The notes under the pieces: generated by a model | The model's database searches: none | Seen by the model: the letters and a program-made list of their open reading frames with translations, nothing else | Told to the model about the DNA's origin: nothing | Program-made: the position numbers and the translations under genes | In this document: positions 21,378 through 27,715 of the stretch, in pieces | Layout: every line of letters starts with the position of its first letter | Position numbering within the stretch: position 1 is the first letter of the stretch | Assembly (NCBI RefSeq): GCF_009831455.1 | Contig: NZ_WOWO01000002.1 | Coordinates: 310,001 to 374,000, forward strand | Direction: 5' to 3' | Source: Salinirussus salinus | Lineage (GTDB): Archaea; Halobacteriota; Halobacteria; Halobacteriales; Haloarculaceae | DNA: 64,000 nucleotides

Positions 21378-22196
21378 ATGCCACCCGCAGCCAGGCAGAC
21401 CTGGCTGCTCGTGCTCGTGTTCGCTGTCGGGCTGTCCGGCTGTAACGCGGTAGCGCCCGACCCGGGGACGACAGTGACGCCGGCACCGGTGCCGGAGGCC
21501 CCCGACTCGCCCGGCGACGTCGCACCTGGTGTTCCATCAAACGCCACGACTGCCGCCGGCGTCGACGGACAGTACGTCGCCAGGGTCCACACCCAGACCC
21601 TACAGAACACGTCGTACTCGGTGACCCAGTCTGTGGTCCAGCGGTTCCCGAACGGGACGGTCGTGGCCCGGTACGTCACCCGGGGGAAGTTTGGCGACGG
21701 TGACCGGGCGACTGTGACCCTCAGCCAGTTCGACCGCAGTTCCGACGGGACGACCCTCCGGACAGTCAAGCGATTTCAGGAGCGGGACAAGCGGTACCGG
21801 CTCGTCATCGAGAACGGGACACGCGAGGCAACCGTGACCAGCGAGTCCGGCTACGGCGCGGCCGACTACCGCAGAGTCCTCGCCAACGGCGGGGCCGTGG
21901 CGCGCGTGTTCGGGTTCGTCTCGACAAGAGTCGCTGGCACCGAGACCGTCGACGGCACCGAGTTCGTGACTCTCGAAACCGTCGAACCCGCATCCGTTCC
22001 ACCGCTCGAGAACGTCACGCTGACAGCCAGGATCTCCGAGCGGAACGTCATCCGTTCGTACCGGGTGACCTATAACGTCGAACGACAGGGCCAGCGGCTC
22101 AACACGACCGTCTCACTGGAGTACACTGACGTCGGCACGACGAGGGTCGACCCCCCCTCGTGGGTCGGGAACGTGACGGCCCGACAGGCGACGTAG
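21378..22196 (+). CDS. Haloarchaeal lipoprotein of unknown function
   Basis: A 272-residue exported protein. The signal has a hydrophobic core (WLLVLVFAVGL) and lipobox LSGC, followed by a Pro/Ala/Thr linker and a beta-rich body of repeated strands (TSYSVTQSVVQRFPNGTVV, TVKRFQERDKRYRLVIENG). Several NxT/NxS sequons suggest N-glycosylation. The fold resembles the DUF7537/LppX-like lipoprotein group in haloarchaea, but I am not certain. It starts 2 bp after the livF stop with no promoter of its own, an unusual partner for a Liv operon. Confidence 0.72.
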   Translation: MPPAARQTWLLVLVFAVGLSGCNAVAPDPGTTVTPAPVPEAPDSPGDVAPGVPSNATTAAGVDGQYVARVHTQTLQNTSYSVTQSVVQRFPNGTVVARYVTRGKFGDGDRATVTLSQFDRSSDGTTLRTVKRFQERDKRYRLVIENGTREATVTSESGYGAADYRRVLANGGAVARVFGFVSTRVAGTETVDGTEFVTLETVEPASVPPLENVTLTARISERNVIRSYRVTYNVERQGQRLNTTVSLEYTDVGTTRVDPPSWVGNVTARQAT

Positions 22197-22246
22197 GAAT
22201 TCACCGGTAGGGCACACGATTCTCACCGTCATCCACGTGCAGACCG

Positions 22247-23170
22247 TTAGCGCCGGAGTCTGGCAACCGTACTCGTCTTGCGCTCCTCGAGACTGACCAG
22301 CCCGTCGTCCGCGAGGTCCTCGACGAGTTCCCGGAGCCACTCGCGGCCGTAGGTTCCGTCGGGGACGTAATCGACGCGAACCAGCGGCCCGAGGTCGTCG
22401 AGTTCGAGCTCGCCGTGCTCCCGCAGCGCCCCGAGCACGCGCCCGCGCATCTGCCGGCGCGACCCCTCGAAGGCCGGCTGCTCCGGCACGTCGGGTGCCG
22501 TGAAATCGCCCGTGGCGTACGCCTGACACCACTCGCGCCAGGGACAGCCCGCCTCGTCACACCGGGGTGTCTGTCCACACGCCACACCTCCGAGTTCCAT
22601 GACCGCGTTGTTCCAGTCCCGCGACTCCCCGGTGGGCATGAGCCGGTTGGCTGCCGTCTCGAACGCGGTGTCGCTGTCAGGAACGCCGAAGGCCCGATAG
22701 AGGACGCGCTTGACGTTCGTGTCCACGACCGCTTCCCCGTTGTTGAACGCGAAGGAGGCGACCGCGTTGGCGGTGTACGGGCCGACGCCCATCAGCTCCT
22801 GGAGAGCCGCGGGCTCGCTCGGAAACTGGCCGTCGAACTCCTCGGTGACCTGACGGGCTGCCTCGTGGAGGTACTTCGCCCGGTTGTTGTAGCCGAGGCT
22901 GTGGTCTGTCCAGAAGCCGACCACCGCAGCGCGGTCGGCGTCGGCCAGGTCTGCGGCGGTCGGCCACCGCTCGATGAACTCCCTCCAGGCTTCGACCACT
23001 CGCGAGAGCTGCGTCTGCTGGCTCATGACCTCCGAGACGAGCACCTCGTAGGGGTCGGTGGTCTCCCGCCAGGGAAACGAGCGGTGGTCCTCACGGTACC
23101 ACGACAGCAGCGCCACGCGGGCCCCCTCCAGACTGGCCTCCGGGAGGTGGTCGGTCTCCGGCTCGTCCAC
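22247..23170 (-). CDS. mutY: A/G-specific adenine DNA glycosylase MutY
   Basis: A 307-residue HhH-GPD glycosylase that removes adenine opposite 8-oxoguanine. The catalytic glutamate is in VSEVMSQQTQLSRV, the helix-hairpin-helix is LMGVGPYTANAVASF and the catalytic aspartate is in VVDTNVKRVLYR. An iron-sulfur loop follows with four cysteines spaced C-X5-C-X4-C-X5-C, slightly different from the C-X6-C-X2-C-X5-C of E. coli MutY. The bacterial NUDIX-like C-terminal domain is missing; a winged-helix-like segment (VLGALREHGELELDDLG) takes its place. GTG 23170 is supported by a TATA-like CATTTTTACT about 27 bp upstream. Confidence 0.9.
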   Translation of the reverse strand: MDEPETDHLPEASLEGARVALLSWYREDHRSFPWRETTDPYEVLVSEVMSQQTQLSRVVEAWREFIERWPTAADLADADRAAVVGFWTDHSLGYNNRAKYLHEAARQVTEEFDGQFPSEPAALQELMGVGPYTANAVASFAFNNGEAVVDTNVKRVLYRAFGVPDSDTAFETAANRLMPTGESRDWNNAVMELGGVACGQTPRCDEAGCPWREWCQAYATGDFTAPDVPEQPAFEGSRRQMRGRVLGALREHGELELDDLGPLVRVDYVPDGTYGREWLRELVEDLADDGLVSLEERKTSTVARLRR

Positions 23171-23191
23171 GCACCCGTGTATCCACTCACG

Positions 23192-23201
23192 GAGTAAAAA
23201 T
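23192..23201 (-). promoter_or_regulatory. mutY TATA-like element
   Basis: CATTTTTACT (minus strand) centred about 27 bp before the GTG start at 23170; it decides the start against the in-frame start at 23260. Confidence 0.5.
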
Positions 23202-23331
23202 GGGGCGAACAGGCGACACCCGGCTGCGGCGACGTGCTGTGTCGCACGACCGCGGAACACGCCGCCGTCGCTGGTCAGGTCACGGGGGCGGTGGTCCGGT
23301 CATCGTATAAAAACCGTCCCTGCCCCCGCGC

Positions 23332-24030
23332 TCAGACGACCGCGAACAGCAAGGAGGACACCGCACTGACGACCTCCTCCCACACCGAATATCCCGTCGT
23401 GATACTGAGGACGGTGTCGGTGGCGAAAAACAGGAAGACTCCGGCTCCGACGAAATGTGCCTTTCGCAGGTCGAAACGGTGGGAGAACCGGTAGAAAAAC
23501 AGCGCGTTGGCCAGGCTGACGGGGATGATCGCCGCCATCTCCCCGGCCCAGATGGCCGCCCCGGCGGTGTACTGGGTCGCGAGCGTGATGGTGATCAGCT
23601 GGGTTTTGTCTCCGAACTCGCCGACGGCCATCATCGCGAAGATCCCGAGAAAGGTCGCCGCCCGCTCGGGGAGGTCGACCCCGAACACCGATAGCTCCCG
23701 GTCTATGGAGTCGAACCCGCCGTCGGTCTCGGTCGTCCGGGGGTCTGAATCCGGTGCTGGCGCTGACCGGAGCAACAGCAGGCCGAAGAGCAGAAAGAAC
23801 CCCGCGGCGATGAGGTCCAGAGCAACCGGCGGGAGTGCGCCCTGGAGCGCCTGCCCGAACACGATCTCCAGGGCCGTCCACCCGGCGAACGCGCTGCCCG
23901 CAGCCGCGACCACGACGAACGGGTTGTACCGGGTCGATAGCCCCGAAATGATGAGCTGGACTTTCTCCCCGGGCAACACCGCGAGCTGCGCCGTGGCCGC
24001 GATGACGAACACTTCGGCGAAGCTGGCCAC
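23332..24030 (-). CDS. GDT1/TMEM165 (UPF0016) family cation transporter
   Basis: A 232-residue membrane protein with six to seven helices in two halves joined by an acidic loop (residues about 90-115). The family mark is an E-x-G-D-K-S/T motif in each half. The second half has a perfect GEFGDKTQL, but the first reads LPGEKVQL, so one of the two conserved acid pairs is altered. Relatives move manganese or calcium, generally outward or into acidic compartments in exchange for protons. The start is a GTG at 24030. A perfect 14 bp dyad and an 8-codon upstream ORF lie in the promoter, so control by metal is plausible. Confidence 0.85.
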   Translation of the reverse strand: MASFAEVFVIAATAQLAVLPGEKVQLIISGLSTRYNPFVVVAAAGSAFAGWTALEIVFGQALQGALPPVALDLIAAGFFLLFGLLLLRSAPAPDSDPRTTETDGGFDSIDRELSVFGVDLPERAATFLGIFAMMAVGEFGDKTQLITITLATQYTAGAAIWAGEMAAIIPVSLANALFFYRFSHRFDLRKAHFVGAGVFLFFATDTVLSITTGYSVWEEVVSAVSSLLFAVV

Positions 24031-24031
24031 G

Positions 24032-24058
24032 TTAGACCACCTCGGCGTCGTCGGTCAT
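24032..24058 (-). CDS. Possible 8-codon leader ORF upstream of the GDT1 gene
   Basis: ATG at 24058 opens an ORF of eight codons (MTDDAEVV) that ends TAA at 24032-24034, one base before the GTG of the transporter at 24030. The TATA-like element (24082-24091) predicts transcription to begin near 24058, so this tiny ORF would be the first thing translated. It could set translation of the GTG-started transporter gene or simply be chance. Confidence 0.3.
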   Translation of the reverse strand: MTDDAEVV

Positions 24059-24067
24059 TCGAGTGTT

Positions 24068-24081
24068 TTAGACGGGTCTAA
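24068..24081 (-). promoter_or_regulatory. Perfect 14 bp dyad in the GDT1 promoter
   Basis: TTAGAC-GG-GTCTAA is a perfect inverted repeat with 6 bp arms. It lies between the TATA-like TTATTAAT (about 24082-24090, minus strand) and the predicted transcription start near 24058. A protein bound here would block initiation. The arms resemble dyads of DtxR/MntR-type metal regulators, which is inference from shape and context. Confidence 0.55.
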
Positions 24082-24108
24082 TTAATAACCCCGGCGGTTA
24101 AAAATCCA

Positions 24109-24735
24109 TCACCCGGGGCGGGCCACCACGGCGAGGTGGTCCTCGTGCCGCGGGTCGAGCCGCCGACGCGCCAGCAGTTCGTACCCCTCGGCGAGCTCCG
24201 CGGTGACGTCCTCGAAAACCGCCTCGGGGTCGCGGGTGACGTCCTCGCTGCGAGCCTTCACCGCGAGCAGCAGGCGGCCACCGTCCTTGAGGAACTGCCG
24301 GTTCTCGAGCGCGACCGCGGCCTGTCCCCGCGTCGCGACGTCCTGGACGATGACGTCGACCGGCTCCACGACGTGTGCGTAGGTCTCGGGGCGGCGTGCG
24401 TCTTTCAACAGCGGAAACAGCCGGTCGCGGTTCCGCGCGACGGCCACCAGGTCCCTGACCGGTCGGGGAGCGAACTCGACGGCGTAGGTCGGTCCGGCGA
24501 AGTCCGCGACGTGACTCGCCGTCGTTCCGGCCGCTGCCCCCAGGTAGAGCACCGTCTCTCCGCCCGCCAGCCCGGTCTCCATCCCCGCGTCGAGCATCGC
24601 GCCGAGCTTCGACCGGGCGGGGTCCCAGGCCCGCCACTCGCCGTCTGTGGCCTCCTCGGAGACCTGCGGCCCGCGAGTCGCGAGCGTCCGCTCGCCGCCG
24701 ACGGTCCGGTACTGGACGCCTTCGGGCAAGCTCAT
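24109..24735 (-). CDS. flpA: Fibrillarin-like rRNA/tRNA 2'-O-methyltransferase
   Basis: A 208-residue S-adenosylmethionine enzyme, the catalytic part of the box C/D guide-RNA complex that methylates ribose in rRNA and tRNA. The N terminus (VQYRTVGGERTLATRG) forms the small beta domain; the SAM-binding loop is VLYLGAAAGTTASHVADF, followed by AVEFAPRPVRDLV and VIVQDVATRGQ. The start ATG overlaps the nop5 stop by 4 bp, giving coupled synthesis with its structural partner. Confidence 0.93.
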   Translation of the reverse strand: MSLPEGVQYRTVGGERTLATRGPQVSEEATDGEWRAWDPARSKLGAMLDAGMETGLAGGETVLYLGAAAGTTASHVADFAGPTYAVEFAPRPVRDLVAVARNRDRLFPLLKDARRPETYAHVVEPVDVIVQDVATRGQAAVALENRQFLKDGGRLLLAVKARSEDVTRDPEAVFEDVTAELAEGYELLARRRLDPRHEDHLAVVARPG

Positions 24736-25559
24736 GCGTCCTCACGAGCGCGGATGCGCTCGATCCGTCCTTCGAGCTCCCGGTCCAGGTCGGGTCGCCT
24801 GTCCCCGCTGTAGTGGTCGACCCGGGCCGCGATGGTCAGCTTGCCGGCCAGCGCCCTGGCGGCCGACCCGCGCTGCTCGGGGTCGGTCCCCCGGACGTAC
24901 TCGTGGGTGTAGATGACGCCGTGTTTCGGCGACGGCGCCCCACCCTGAAGATGTGCGAAGAGCGCGTCCTCGGCTCCGAGCACCTGGAGGGTCCCGCTGG
25001 GCTTCTTCGCCAGCGCCTCCAGCCCGCCCGCGAGCGAGACGAGACGGGCGGCGAGGACGGGCCCCGCCAGCGCCGACAGGTTCGGAGCCACCGACGGCGC
25101 GGTCCGCTCGACGTGCCCCCGGAGCGTCGCTGCGTCCTCCTCCAGGGCCCGGACGCGCTCTGCGAGGGAGACGAGTCGCCGCTCGCCGGGGGTCTCGGGC
25201 TCGCGGTCGGCCACATCCGCGGCGTCGTCGGGCCACCCGAGGCTGCCGGCCCACTCCGCGACGCGCTCCGCGAGTTCGTTCGCAGTCCGGCTCGCGTCGT
25301 CCATCGCCCGGAGGCTGTGCACGAGCTGCCTGTCGTCCGCCCGTTCGCGTTCCCGGCTCGCCTCCGCTGCCGCGCTGACGGTCGCGTCGTGGAGCAGGCC
25401 GTAGTACTCGTCCTCGTCGGCCGCGAAGCCGGCGCCGACTGCCAGCGCGGGCCAGTCCGCCGGTCCGGCGGCACTCCCTCCCTCGATCGCCTCCCGGGCC
25501 CCGTCTAGGTCTCCCGGGTCCACGTCCTGAAACCACCCGTCGGCGGTGTCTCCGGTCAT
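24732..25559 (-). CDS. nop5: Nop5/Nop56/58 box C/D RNP core protein
   Basis: A 275-residue protein that bridges fibrillarin and the L7Ae-bound guide RNA. The N-terminal part (ending about residue 60) should bind fibrillarin, a long charged coiled-coil region follows, and the C-terminal Nop domain is recognisable from APNLSALAGPVLAARLVSLAGGLEALAKKPSGTLQVLG through SPKHGVIYTHEYV (written here as separate blocks). It is short for the family and lacks the lysine-rich tail of some archaeal versions. ATG 25559 is about 27 bp after the TATA-like CATTTACA; an in-frame ATG is also at 25568. flpA follows with a 4 bp overlap. Confidence 0.78.
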   Translation of the reverse strand: MTGDTADGWFQDVDPGDLDGAREAIEGGSAAGPADWPALAVGAGFAADEDEYYGLLHDATVSAAAEASRERERADDRQLVHSLRAMDDASRTANELAERVAEWAGSLGWPDDAADVADREPETPGERRLVSLAERVRALEEDAATLRGHVERTAPSVAPNLSALAGPVLAARLVSLAGGLEALAKKPSGTLQVLGAEDALFAHLQGGAPSPKHGVIYTHEYVRGTDPEQRGSAARALAGKLTIAARVDHYSGDRRPDLDRELEGRIERIRAREDA

Positions 25560-25579
25560 GGCCGCCATAGACGCCCCGC

Positions 25580-25590
25580 CTGTAAATGGA
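25580..25590 (-). promoter_or_regulatory. nop5-flpA TATA-like element
   Basis: CATTTACA on the minus strand, centred about 27 bp before ATG 25559, in the 185 bp gap shared with the acyl-CoA synthetase promoter. Confidence 0.45.
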
Positions 25591-25710
25591 CTTTCGGTAG
25601 CGCGAGACCCGCGACGCGGAGCGCCTCGACCGCGGACTCCACCGGCCGGCCGCCCCTGCCTGGCCGGGTACGATCCGGCTACCGGACCGGAGAAGGCCGC
25701 CTGCTGCCGG

Positions 25711-25723
25711 TGATTTTTATATT
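25711..25723 (+). promoter_or_regulatory. TATA box of the long-chain acyl-CoA synthetase
   Basis: GATTTTTATATTC is the clearest TATA box in the window. It is 23-33 bp before ATG 25745, giving a leaderless transcript. Confidence 0.65.
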
Positions 25724-25744
25724 CCGGTCCCGTCGTGAGACGGT

Positions 25745-27715
25745 ATGGCACAGACAGAGCCGGCGTGGCTCCGGGCCGAGCGGGAGTACCGCGACGAGCT
25801 TCCCGACAGGTGTACGGTCCCCGAGCTGTTCGAGGACAGCGCGGCGCGCCACCTCGACCGGCCGGCACAGCACTACAAGGGCGGCGTCTACGACCGCTCG
25901 CTCGCCGCCGAGGGCGTCGTGCAGGCGGCCGACACCGGGGAGTTCGCCAGCCTCTCCTACGGCGAGATGCGGGACGTCGTCCGGAAGCTGGCGACCGGCT
26001 TTCGCGAACTCGGCCTCGAGGCCGACGACCGGGTCGGGATCTACGCGAACACGCGCATGGAGTGGGCACAGACCGACTTCTCGGCGCTGGCGGCCGGCTG
26101 TGTCGTCACCACCGTCTACACCGAGTCCTCGCCCGCCCAGCTGCGTTACCTGCTCGCGGATCCGGAAGCGAAGGCGGTCGTCGTCGAGAACGAGAGTCTG
26201 CTCGACACCCTGCTGGAGGTCGAGGAGGACCTCGACCTTGACCACATCGTCCTGGTCGACGAGCCCGCACGCGGGTACGACCGCGAGGACGTCCACACCC
26301 TCGGCGAGGTCCACGAGCTGGGTGCGGCGGCTTACGACGCGGAGACCTACCGGGAGTGGGTCGACGAGCGGGACCCCGAAGACCTCGCGAGCCTGGTCTA
26401 CACCTCGGGGACGACCGGCGACCCGAAGGGGGTGAAACTCTCCCATCACAACTTCCGGACCAACGTCCGGCAGGTCCACCGCCGGTTCTGCCCCCGGCCG
26501 GACAAGCCGCCGGAGATGCCCACGCTCGACGAGGAGACACGCGCCATCTCCTTTCTGCCGCTGGCGCACGTCTTCGAGCGCCTCTCCGGGCACTTCGCGC
26601 TCTTCTCCGTGGGAGCGAGCGTCGGCTACGCCGAGAATCCGGACACGCTCACCGAGGACTTCCCGAAGCTCGCGCCGACGACCGCGGGCAGCGTCCCCCG
26701 GGTCTACGAGCGGATCTACGAGGCGATCCGCGAGCAAGCCGGCGAGTCCGACGCGAAAGCGCGCATCTTCGAGTGGGCGGCCGGCGTCGCCCGCCAGTAC
26801 GCGGACGCCGACTCGCCCGGCCCGCTGTTGCGCCTGAAACACGGGGTCGCCGACCGGCTGGTCTACAGCACCGTCCGCGAACGCCTCGGCGGCAACATCG
26901 ACTTTCTCGTCTCCGGCGGCGGGAGCCTCAGCCCCGACCTCATCCGGCTGTTTCTCGGCATGGGCATCACCGTCGTCGAGGGGTACGGCCTCACCGAAAC
27001 CTCGCCAGTGGTCTCGACGAACCCCCTCGAGGACATCCGCCCGGGGACGCTCGGCCCGCCGGTCGTCGGCGTCGAGACCCGCATCGACGAGTCGGTCGTC
27101 CCACAGGAGGAGTTCGAGGCCGCGGGACAGGTCGGGGAACTGCTCGTGCGCGGCGACAACGTCACCGAGGGGTACTGGGAGAAACCCGGCGCGACCGAGC
27201 AGGCCTTCACCGACGGCTGGTTCCGGACGGGCGACATCGTCGCGGAGTCGCCCGACGGCTACCTGACCTTCCGGGAGCGCCTCAAGCAGCTGCTCGTGCT
27301 CTCGACGGGCAAAAACGTCGCGCCGGGCCCCATCGAGGACCGCTTTGCAACCAGCGAGCGCATCGACCAGATCATGCTCGTCGGCGACGGCCGGAAGTAC
27401 GTGGCCGCCCTCATCGTCCCCAACTTCGGACAGCTCCGCGCGTGGGCCGCCGAGGAGGGCGTCTCGCTCCCGGACGACGAGGAAGCGCTCTGCGAGGACG
27501 ACCGCGTCCGCGAGTGGGTCCGGGAGGCGCTCGCGGCGGTCAACGCGGACCTGTCTCCCCACGAGTCCGTCGAACGGTTCGAACTCGTCACCGAGGAGTG
27601 GACCGCCGAGAACGGGCTGCTCACACCGTCGATGAAGAAGAAACGTCGTGAAATTACCGACGCCTACGAGGAGAAAGTCGACCAACTCTACGCCGAGGAA
27701 GCCGCCGCGGACTGA
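25745..27715 (+). CDS. Long-chain fatty-acyl-CoA synthetase (AMP-forming)
   Basis: A 656-residue ANL-superfamily ligase that adenylates a fatty acid and transfers it to coenzyme A. The phosphate-binding loop VYTSGTTGDPKGVKLSH is near residue 220; VSGGGSLSPDL, VVEGYGLTETSPV and WFRTGDIV (the hinge Asp) follow. The length and the RLKQLLVLSTGKNVAP block place it with long-chain (ACSL/FadD15-like) enzymes and not acetate ligases. Haloarchaea have few fatty acids, so the substrate may be a branched or exogenous acid. It is monocistronic, convergent with yjbQ. Confidence 0.88.
   Translation: MAQTEPAWLRAEREYRDELPDRCTVPELFEDSAARHLDRPAQHYKGGVYDRSLAAEGVVQAADTGEFASLSYGEMRDVVRKLATGFRELGLEADDRVGIYANTRMEWAQTDFSALAAGCVVTTVYTESSPAQLRYLLADPEAKAVVVENESLLDTLLEVEEDLDLDHIVLVDEPARGYDREDVHTLGEVHELGAAAYDAETYREWVDERDPEDLASLVYTSGTTGDPKGVKLSHHNFRTNVRQVHRRFCPRPDKPPEMPTLDEETRAISFLPLAHVFERLSGHFALFSVGASVGYAENPDTLTEDFPKLAPTTAGSVPRVYERIYEAIREQAGESDAKARIFEWAAGVARQYADADSPGPLLRLKHGVADRLVYSTVRERLGGNIDFLVSGGGSLSPDLIRLFLGMGITVVEGYGLTETSPVVSTNPLEDIRPGTLGPPVVGVETRIDESVVPQEEFEAAGQVGELLVRGDNVTEGYWEKPGATEQAFTDGWFRTGDIVAESPDGYLTFRERLKQLLVLSTGKNVAPGPIEDRFATSERIDQIMLVGDGRKYVAALIVPNFGQLRAWAAEEGVSLPDDEEALCEDDRVREWVREALAAVNADLSPHESVERFELVTEEWTAENGLLTPSMKKKRREITDAYEEKVDQLYAEEAAAD

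Follow-up and report, generated by a model that had tools for sequence, protein, structure and literature searches.

The window, a 64,000-nucleotide stretch of the Salinirussus salinus genome (NZ_WOWO01000002.1, positions 310,001 to 374,000), carries on its minus strand a gene of the GDT1 family with the following features at and upstream of its start:

23332-24030, minus strand: GDT1/UPF0016-family cation transporter gene with a GTG start (PF01169, E 4.1e-26)
24058-24032, minus strand: leader mini-ORF of eight codons (MTDDAEVV, then TAA), with a predicted leaderless start
24043-24038, minus strand: Shine-Dalgarno-like GAGGTG within the mini-ORF, 7 nt ahead of the GDT1 start
24081-24068, palindromic: operator-like dyad TTAGACCCGTCTAA, TTAGAC-CC-GTCTAA on the minus strand (from sequence and from conservation ahead of GDT1 and mntR)
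24088-24081, minus strand: TATA-like box TTATTAAT, ∼27 nt ahead of the mini-ORF ATG (from sequence)
24109-24735, minus strand: fibrillarin-like gene (PF01269), the end of a nop5-fibrillarin pair; upstream neighbor, outside the leader

Both the dyad (24068-24081) and the eight-codon ORF (24058-24032) were verified ahead of the GDT1-family gene on the minus strand. A sequence-only reading of the window had described a perfect TTAGAC/GTCTAA repeat centered on GG, a TATA-like element ahead of it, and an eight-codon ORF opening at ATG 24058 and stopping one base before the GTG of the transporter. The repeat, the TATA-like element, and the ORF are all present in the sequence; the GG center is correct as plus-strand letters, but on the gene strand the center reads CC. 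The codons of the mini-ORF are ATG ACC GAC GAC GCC GAG GTG GTC TAA, with the stop at 24034-24032, and a single C (24031) separates this stop from the GTG at 24030. The TATA-like box and the dyad touch. New beyond the earlier reading are the GAGGTG within the mini-ORF and the location of the mini-ORF at the position of a repressor gene (see below). A mini-ORF of the same place and length, encoding another peptide (MTDAVGGV), occurs in Salinirussus locus L033, which is probably from the same genome as G392/L274. A TTAGACC half-site (24032-24038) was also observed, which overlaps the mini-ORF stop codon and faces the dyad. Identification of the downstream gene as GDT1, likewise proposed from the letters of the window, was borne out by profile search: the 232-codon ORF from GTG 24030 matches PF01169 over two stretches at 91.6 bits (cut-off 27), and the family motif E-x-G-D-(R/K)-(S/T), as defined in a review of UPF0016 proteins, is present in the translation as GEFGDKT.

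Judged from the window alone, the dyad is unremarkable; when the 78-nt intergenic stretch was shuffled 1000 times, 140 of the products held a perfect 6-bp inverted repeat with a spacer of 0-10. It stands above chance because it is conserved in related promoters. A search of 392 genomes from the order found GDT1 in 281, and 123 haloarchaeal GDT1 loci (116 distinct) were compared, of which 30 came from the search output, 13 from named genomes, and 80 were hand-picked for genus spread. Loci were classed mechanically, class A (58 loci) having a reading frame of at least 200 codons abutting GDT1 and class B comprising the other 65, and gene starts were also set by rule (nearest ATG, otherwise GTG). 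Class B holds G005, despite an MntR match ∼330 nt upstream of GDT1, and the Halorhabdus locus, despite a preceding mntR and relay ORFs; both lie outside the 56 leaders considered below. The upstream frames of class A mostly start MLSDVMEDYLK or similar, and one that was run against Pfam is a DtxR-family regulator with a FeoA domain. In 55 of the 58 loci, the class A regulator overlaps GDT1 by 4 nt. The same contig is represented twice in several pairs (L034/L010, L035/L162, L037/L139, L038/L145, L039/L124, L040/L151, and L042/L118). Removal of the second copies, counted by hand, leaves 56 class A loci (4-nt overlap in 53), 60 class B loci (dyad exact in 31 and within two mismatches in 56), and 46 of 52 in the test of leader ends described below.

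Exact copies of TTAGAYNNRTCTAA are present at 33 of 65 class B loci, copies with one mismatch at 21, and copies with two at 6. The conservation in orthologous promoters on which the sequence-only reading had made its proposed switch depend is therefore present within two mismatches at 60 of 65 loci, compared with 14 of 1300 shuffled class B stretches. The reversed pattern was within two mismatches at 0 of 65 and never came nearer than three. The dyad also lies, within two mismatches, ahead of mntR in 47 of 58 class A loci. Exact dyad sites number 154 in 96 of 116 family genomes, and reversed-pattern sites, by hand count, 21 in 19 of 116. Further sites are located ahead of ZnuA-type ABC operons, ArsP_2 proteins (PF11449), and multicopper-oxidase genes, the last being followed by a gene for a weakly ZIP-like protein; a small number are near other genes. 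In the window's own genome (G000; 3.37 Mb), the exact TTAGACNNGTCTAA occurs once. One other place matches with a single mismatch, 35 nt ahead of the first codon of a gene for a ZnuA-like substrate-binding protein, with ATPase and permease genes next in line (all three named from resemblance to L086 proteins). Upstream of the dyad-marked ZnuA-like operon is a ribonucleotide-reductase R2-type protein (PF00268; L085:2430-3383); some members of this family use Mn. Another recurrent element, of TTnG type and ∼22 nt ahead of the dyad, upstream of the TATA box, was observed in both classes; it may represent either a further half-site or some feature of the promoter, and it is not obvious in the window.

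Taken as a set, the dyad sites appear to outline a metal regulon, probably for Mn, with the identity of the metal suggested by the best models of the regulator. The connection to MntR/DtxR-like proteins that had been guessed from the window is favored as well, in that MntR/DtxR regulator genes and operons for metal transporters apparently carry the dyad in front. The window's genome encodes a full DtxR-family regulator (PF01325, PF02742, and FeoA; L084 4770-5453; MntR at C2:126769-127452) for which the best NCBIfam model is MntR (NF047407; 217.8 bits, below the cut-off of 350) and whose matches among solved chains include ScaR, SloR, and MntR, plus IdeR and DtxR. ScaR and SloR are Mn regulators. 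No dyad was found ahead of the genome's own MntR gene (L084:4770-5453), just a GTCTA half-site; most relatives differ in this respect, and autoregulation of the gene may have been lost. This missing dyad, the presence of several DtxR-like proteins in the genome, and the predicted status of binding between dyad and regulator would each suit an explanation in which the dyad is the site of some other regulator, or a mere element of the promoter, and the mini-ORF an incidental feature. We consider that explanation very improbable, given the sites ahead of mntR and metal transporters in many genera and a leader frame and end conserved far above shuffles.

Across 60 class B promoters, the dyad is directly preceded in the consensus by TTATa and, before that, by a BRE-like stretch of CGAAA type; a haloarchaeal BRE/TATA consensus is given in the available part of PMC4983044. 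With the dyad abutting the TATA box and the start codon ∼27 nt off, a leaderless transcript and a promoter-blocking repressor are predicted; transcription would probably start at the mini-ORF ATG or no more than a few bases away. In all 47 class A loci having the dyad, the mntR start codon lies 22 to 31 nt after the dyad start. Class B loci exhibit a start codon 17 to 31 nt after the dyad start in 56 of 60 cases (ATG or GTG at 20-28 nt in 49 of the 56), and ATG is found at 21 to 31 nt in 45 of 60 (7.3 expected).

Leaders opened by these start codons also end at a characteristic place. At 50 of 56 loci, their stop falls between −10 and +8 relative to the GDT1 start, as compared to 13.5 expected from shuffled leaders and frame; by this comparison, the tiny ORF that the sequence-only reading had proposed as a translational leader appears to be a conserved one. 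The loci are related and some are duplicated, and the safest figure is therefore that for one locus per genus, 14 of 19 versus 3.6 expected (P 8e-8). Overlaps of 4 nt (37 leaders), 8 nt (4), and 1 nt (1) together account for 42 of the 56 ends, and the gaps are of one base (4) or otherwise short (4). The six leaders that miss the −10 to +8 interval consist of five 16- to 22-nt overlaps and one far miss. Leader lengths range over 5 to 50 codons, with 83 in g78/g79. Shine-Dalgarno-like 5-mers precede GDT1 at 35 of 65 class B loci (7.2 expected) and are absent at 13 of 13 g23 loci. A hold-out set was drawn from 36 further family genomes, 27 of which had a match, and gave 24 loci (1 class A and 23 class B). 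The dyad was present within two mismatches at 20 of the 23 class B loci, and the leader ended inside the −10 to +8 interval in 14 of these 20 and missed it in 6, with L291 scored as a miss though its second ATG would yield a 1-nt overlap; when two repeats (L274 = L033 and L294 = L045) are left out, the count is 12 of 18. Over both sets, misses are mostly 16- to 22-nt overlaps. The arrangement of dyad and leader is far more frequent than chance would give. The two elements are separable, as three g4 loci with no dyad ahead of GDT1 (L004, L008, and L006) have short upstream ORFs: 14 codons with a 4-nt overlap in L004 and L008, and in L006 a 12-codon ORF ending 7 nt before GDT1 plus a 6-codon ORF with a 4-nt overlap.

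Conservation of the leader extends to its frame and end, and apparently not to its peptide. Equal-length leaders of genus g33 differ by 0.50/0.41/0.48 per codon position, i.e., without third-position excess, and the first 28 codons of GDT1 in the same loci differ by 0.08/0.04/0.31. Leaders of g23 and g79 resemble those of g33 in this pattern, those of g5 and g47 have too few differences for it to be read, and those of g8 (three loci) show higher third-position change (0.24/0.08/0.40). Leaders of at least 12 codons contain 3 stops in the leader frame and 20 and 21 in the other frames, a count that illustrates rather than tests, since the set was selected for an open frame. The leader thus seems to act via being translated, not via its peptide. 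On the codon-position counts, a leader peptide of conserved sequence was rejected. An N-terminal extension of GDT1 or a programmed frameshift was rejected, with leaders in frame 1 at 44 of 56 loci and in frame 2 at 10; such varied frames, together with several stop overlaps, fit coupling but not a single shift rule. A hairpin or riboswitch in the leader RNA was likewise rejected, on the grounds that the dyad is upstream of the predicted start and that no Rfam family, yybP-ykoY and the metal riboswitches included, was matched in 22000-26000 at E up to 1. Were the leader a peptide or attenuator that regulates by sensing metal as it is translated, the presence of a short leader with conserved architecture ahead of a metal-transporter gene would be explained. 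Peptides that are unconserved within genera, larger leader sets free of third-position excess, and the same Rfam result make this proposal scarcely credible.

The mini-ORF occupies the position that the repressor gene holds in other genomes. When an MntR profile built from the 58 class A regulators was run against the leaders, the 83-codon leader of L128 (G291) matched it at E 7e-5, in register from residue 3 and at the N terminus. L130 gave a weak match (E 0.033) and L127, also of 83 codons, E 1.4; the best value among 20 shuffles of every leader was 0.56. No other leader, short ones included, displayed a convincing MntR resemblance by profile, a comparison to which only the longer ones lend themselves. 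An MLS start is seen in 5 of 10 g33 leaders and could be due to chance. Both states of the locus occur within g33. In G161 and G074, the gene order is a LysE-type gene, GDT1, mntR, and a threonine-synthase-like gene (neighbors that we take to be such from their translations). In G114, G124, and G130, mntR adjoins the LysE-type gene with no GDT1 between, the threonine-synthase-like neighbor is seen at the mntR locus in G114 and G130, and GDT1 is elsewhere, behind a dyad and a 22- to 23-codon leader. Two histories fit this synteny: relocation of GDT1, or joint duplication of GDT1 and mntR followed by a partial loss in each copy. An MntR-like gene is retained in 44 of 45 class B genomes checked, the exception being an 88%-complete assembly. 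In a quickly built tree of GDT1 (90 rows, of which one, L030, is an incorrect ORF on a very long branch), the state must have switched 12 times, with starred branches forcing no fewer than 3 of the switches; the tree is unrooted and weak and thus does not indicate which state is older.

The best reading, to which we give a probability of roughly 0.7, is that an MntR operator is followed here by the collapsed remnant of an mntR ORF, maintained as a leader for termination-reinitiation. The ancestral operon would have been dyad-mntR-GDT1, with mntR as first gene and a 4-nt overlap; mntR would then have been lost ahead of GDT1, with the protein gone but the operator, the start codon, the site of coupling, and the frame preserved. 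That the mntR-GDT1 operon came first is presumed in this scheme, and descent of the window's eight codons from mntR is suggested by position and relatives rather than by similarity. An alternative, which we regard as unlikely, is that the mini-ORF was never mntR and that such ORFs arise de novo at leaderless GDT1 promoters with a short spacer, operator and coupling being unchanged; in haloarchaea, which would lack Shine-Dalgarno-led initiation at 5′-UTRs, any ribosome-delivering ORF would be selected. Consistent with de novo origin, most leaders lack MntR resemblance, leader lengths vary widely, and chance alone would supply ∼13.5 suitable stops per 56, making raw material common. It fits poorly, however, with the spacing between dyad and start codon that leaders and mntR genes share, with the in-register resemblance of L128 and L130 to the MntR N terminus, and with the g33 synteny. 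Genes sharing the dyad are also at odds with it: ABC-transporter genes have no coupled leader, and multicopper-oxidase genes, which are also found behind a DtxR-like frame, have one.

Collapse of mntR into a leader may be one instance of a broader pattern, for which the chances seem to us about even, whereby genes coupled to a departed upstream regulator keep its frame as a mini-ORF selected for frame and end only. Cited for this general reading are the two states of the multicopper-oxidase/ZIP operon and a relay in Halorhabdus. At the multicopper-oxidase genes, leaders of 15 to 26 codons with a 4-nt overlap are found in L078-L080 and L233 (dyads at 1501, 1501, 1501, and 6088); a DtxR-like frame takes the leader's place in L098 and L099. 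Halorhabdus L037 has two mini-ORFs (11 and 22 codons) between mntR and GDT1 (0-based 1898-2004), the relay being joined by 4-, 1-, and 4-nt overlaps. ABC-transporter genes with the same dyad (eight loci) start directly or without a coupled leader. The ArsP_2 genes of L100 (dyad 2803) and L096 (dyad 2878, minus) were observed to have upstream ORFs of 27 and 29 codons, which overlap the gene start by 4 nt by coordinates and begin 69 to 75 nt after the dyad.

In the proposed mechanism, ribosomes would translate the eight codons, terminate, and reinitiate at the GDT1 GTG one base on, with the GAGGTG in the mini-ORF aiding reinitiation; translation of GDT1 would depend on that of the leader. We infer repressor binding, leaderless start, metal identity, and translational coupling alike. 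Given the site in the repressor position before GDT1, metal-loaded MntR is predicted to shut GDT1 off. The predicted repression is opposite to the behavior of bacterial Mn-exporting relatives of GDT1, which are induced by Mn. The same kind of site was observed ahead of both uptake and presumed efflux genes. If correct, the reading joins an apparent haloarchaeal Mn-type regulon (repressor, uptake system, and GDT1) to an unusual kind of gene loss, one that spared nothing but translation itself. It makes testable the idea that archaeal leader ORFs deliver ribosomes rather than peptides, and it provides gene finders with a rationale for very small ORFs at promoters of leaderless transcripts.

Several known systems are reminiscent of parts of this arrangement. 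DtxR-type control of haloarchaeal GDT1/UPF0016 genes was, reportedly, probably predicted by Leyn and Rodionov in 2015. A review, in its available part, places four halobacterial UPF0016 genes under Mn-linked control, for which it cites Leyn and Rodionov beside another source, and names ManSR. The accessible text of PMC3600143 describes Halobacterium SirR as a Mn(II)-dependent autorepressor whose deletion raises zurM, zurA, and ycdH; as in the haloarchaeal MntR/SirR/DtxR regulons so described, a DtxR-family repressor gene, a palindromic operator, and ABC uptake genes occur together here. Metal-linked control of the UPF0016 family is shared with the bacterial genes under yybP-ykoY Mn riboswitches, at least in the sources as available; unlike that system, there is no riboswitch match here, and control apparently relies on an operator and a translated leader. 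Short ORFs upstream of genes have a parallel in the uORFs of 15 to 31 codons found by dRNA-seq in Haloferax volcanii, which lie in 150- to 250-nt 5′-UTRs and are thought, in the portion of PMC4983044 at hand, to be genes. Unlike these uORFs, the ORF here runs from the predicted transcript start to the gene start. In titles and abstract starts of the open-licence literature, no report of such a leader was found.

The closest precedent is termination-reinitiation in H. volcanii. As far as the available text of Huber et al. (2019, PMC6728339) goes, overlapping gene pairs of this species are strictly coupled, and its Shine-Dalgarno motifs are inactive at 5′-UTRs and aid reinitiation to a varying degree. 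The corresponding part of a 2023 follow-up (PMC10666635) reports coupling in a native pair separated by a single base, near loss of coupling at a distance of ∼20 nt, and sufficiency of the final 15 nt of the upstream gene. By analogy, the leader in the window (27 nt, with a one-base gap and a GAGGTG) would be suited to coupling under the circumstances described in H. volcanii. Like those pairs, as reported in the sections available, the haloarchaeal leaders use 4-, 1-, and 8-nt overlaps and a Shine-Dalgarno motif inside the upstream ORF. In contrast to the same pairs, in which the upstream member is a normal gene, a mini-ORF with no conserved peptide stands here in the place of the regulator.
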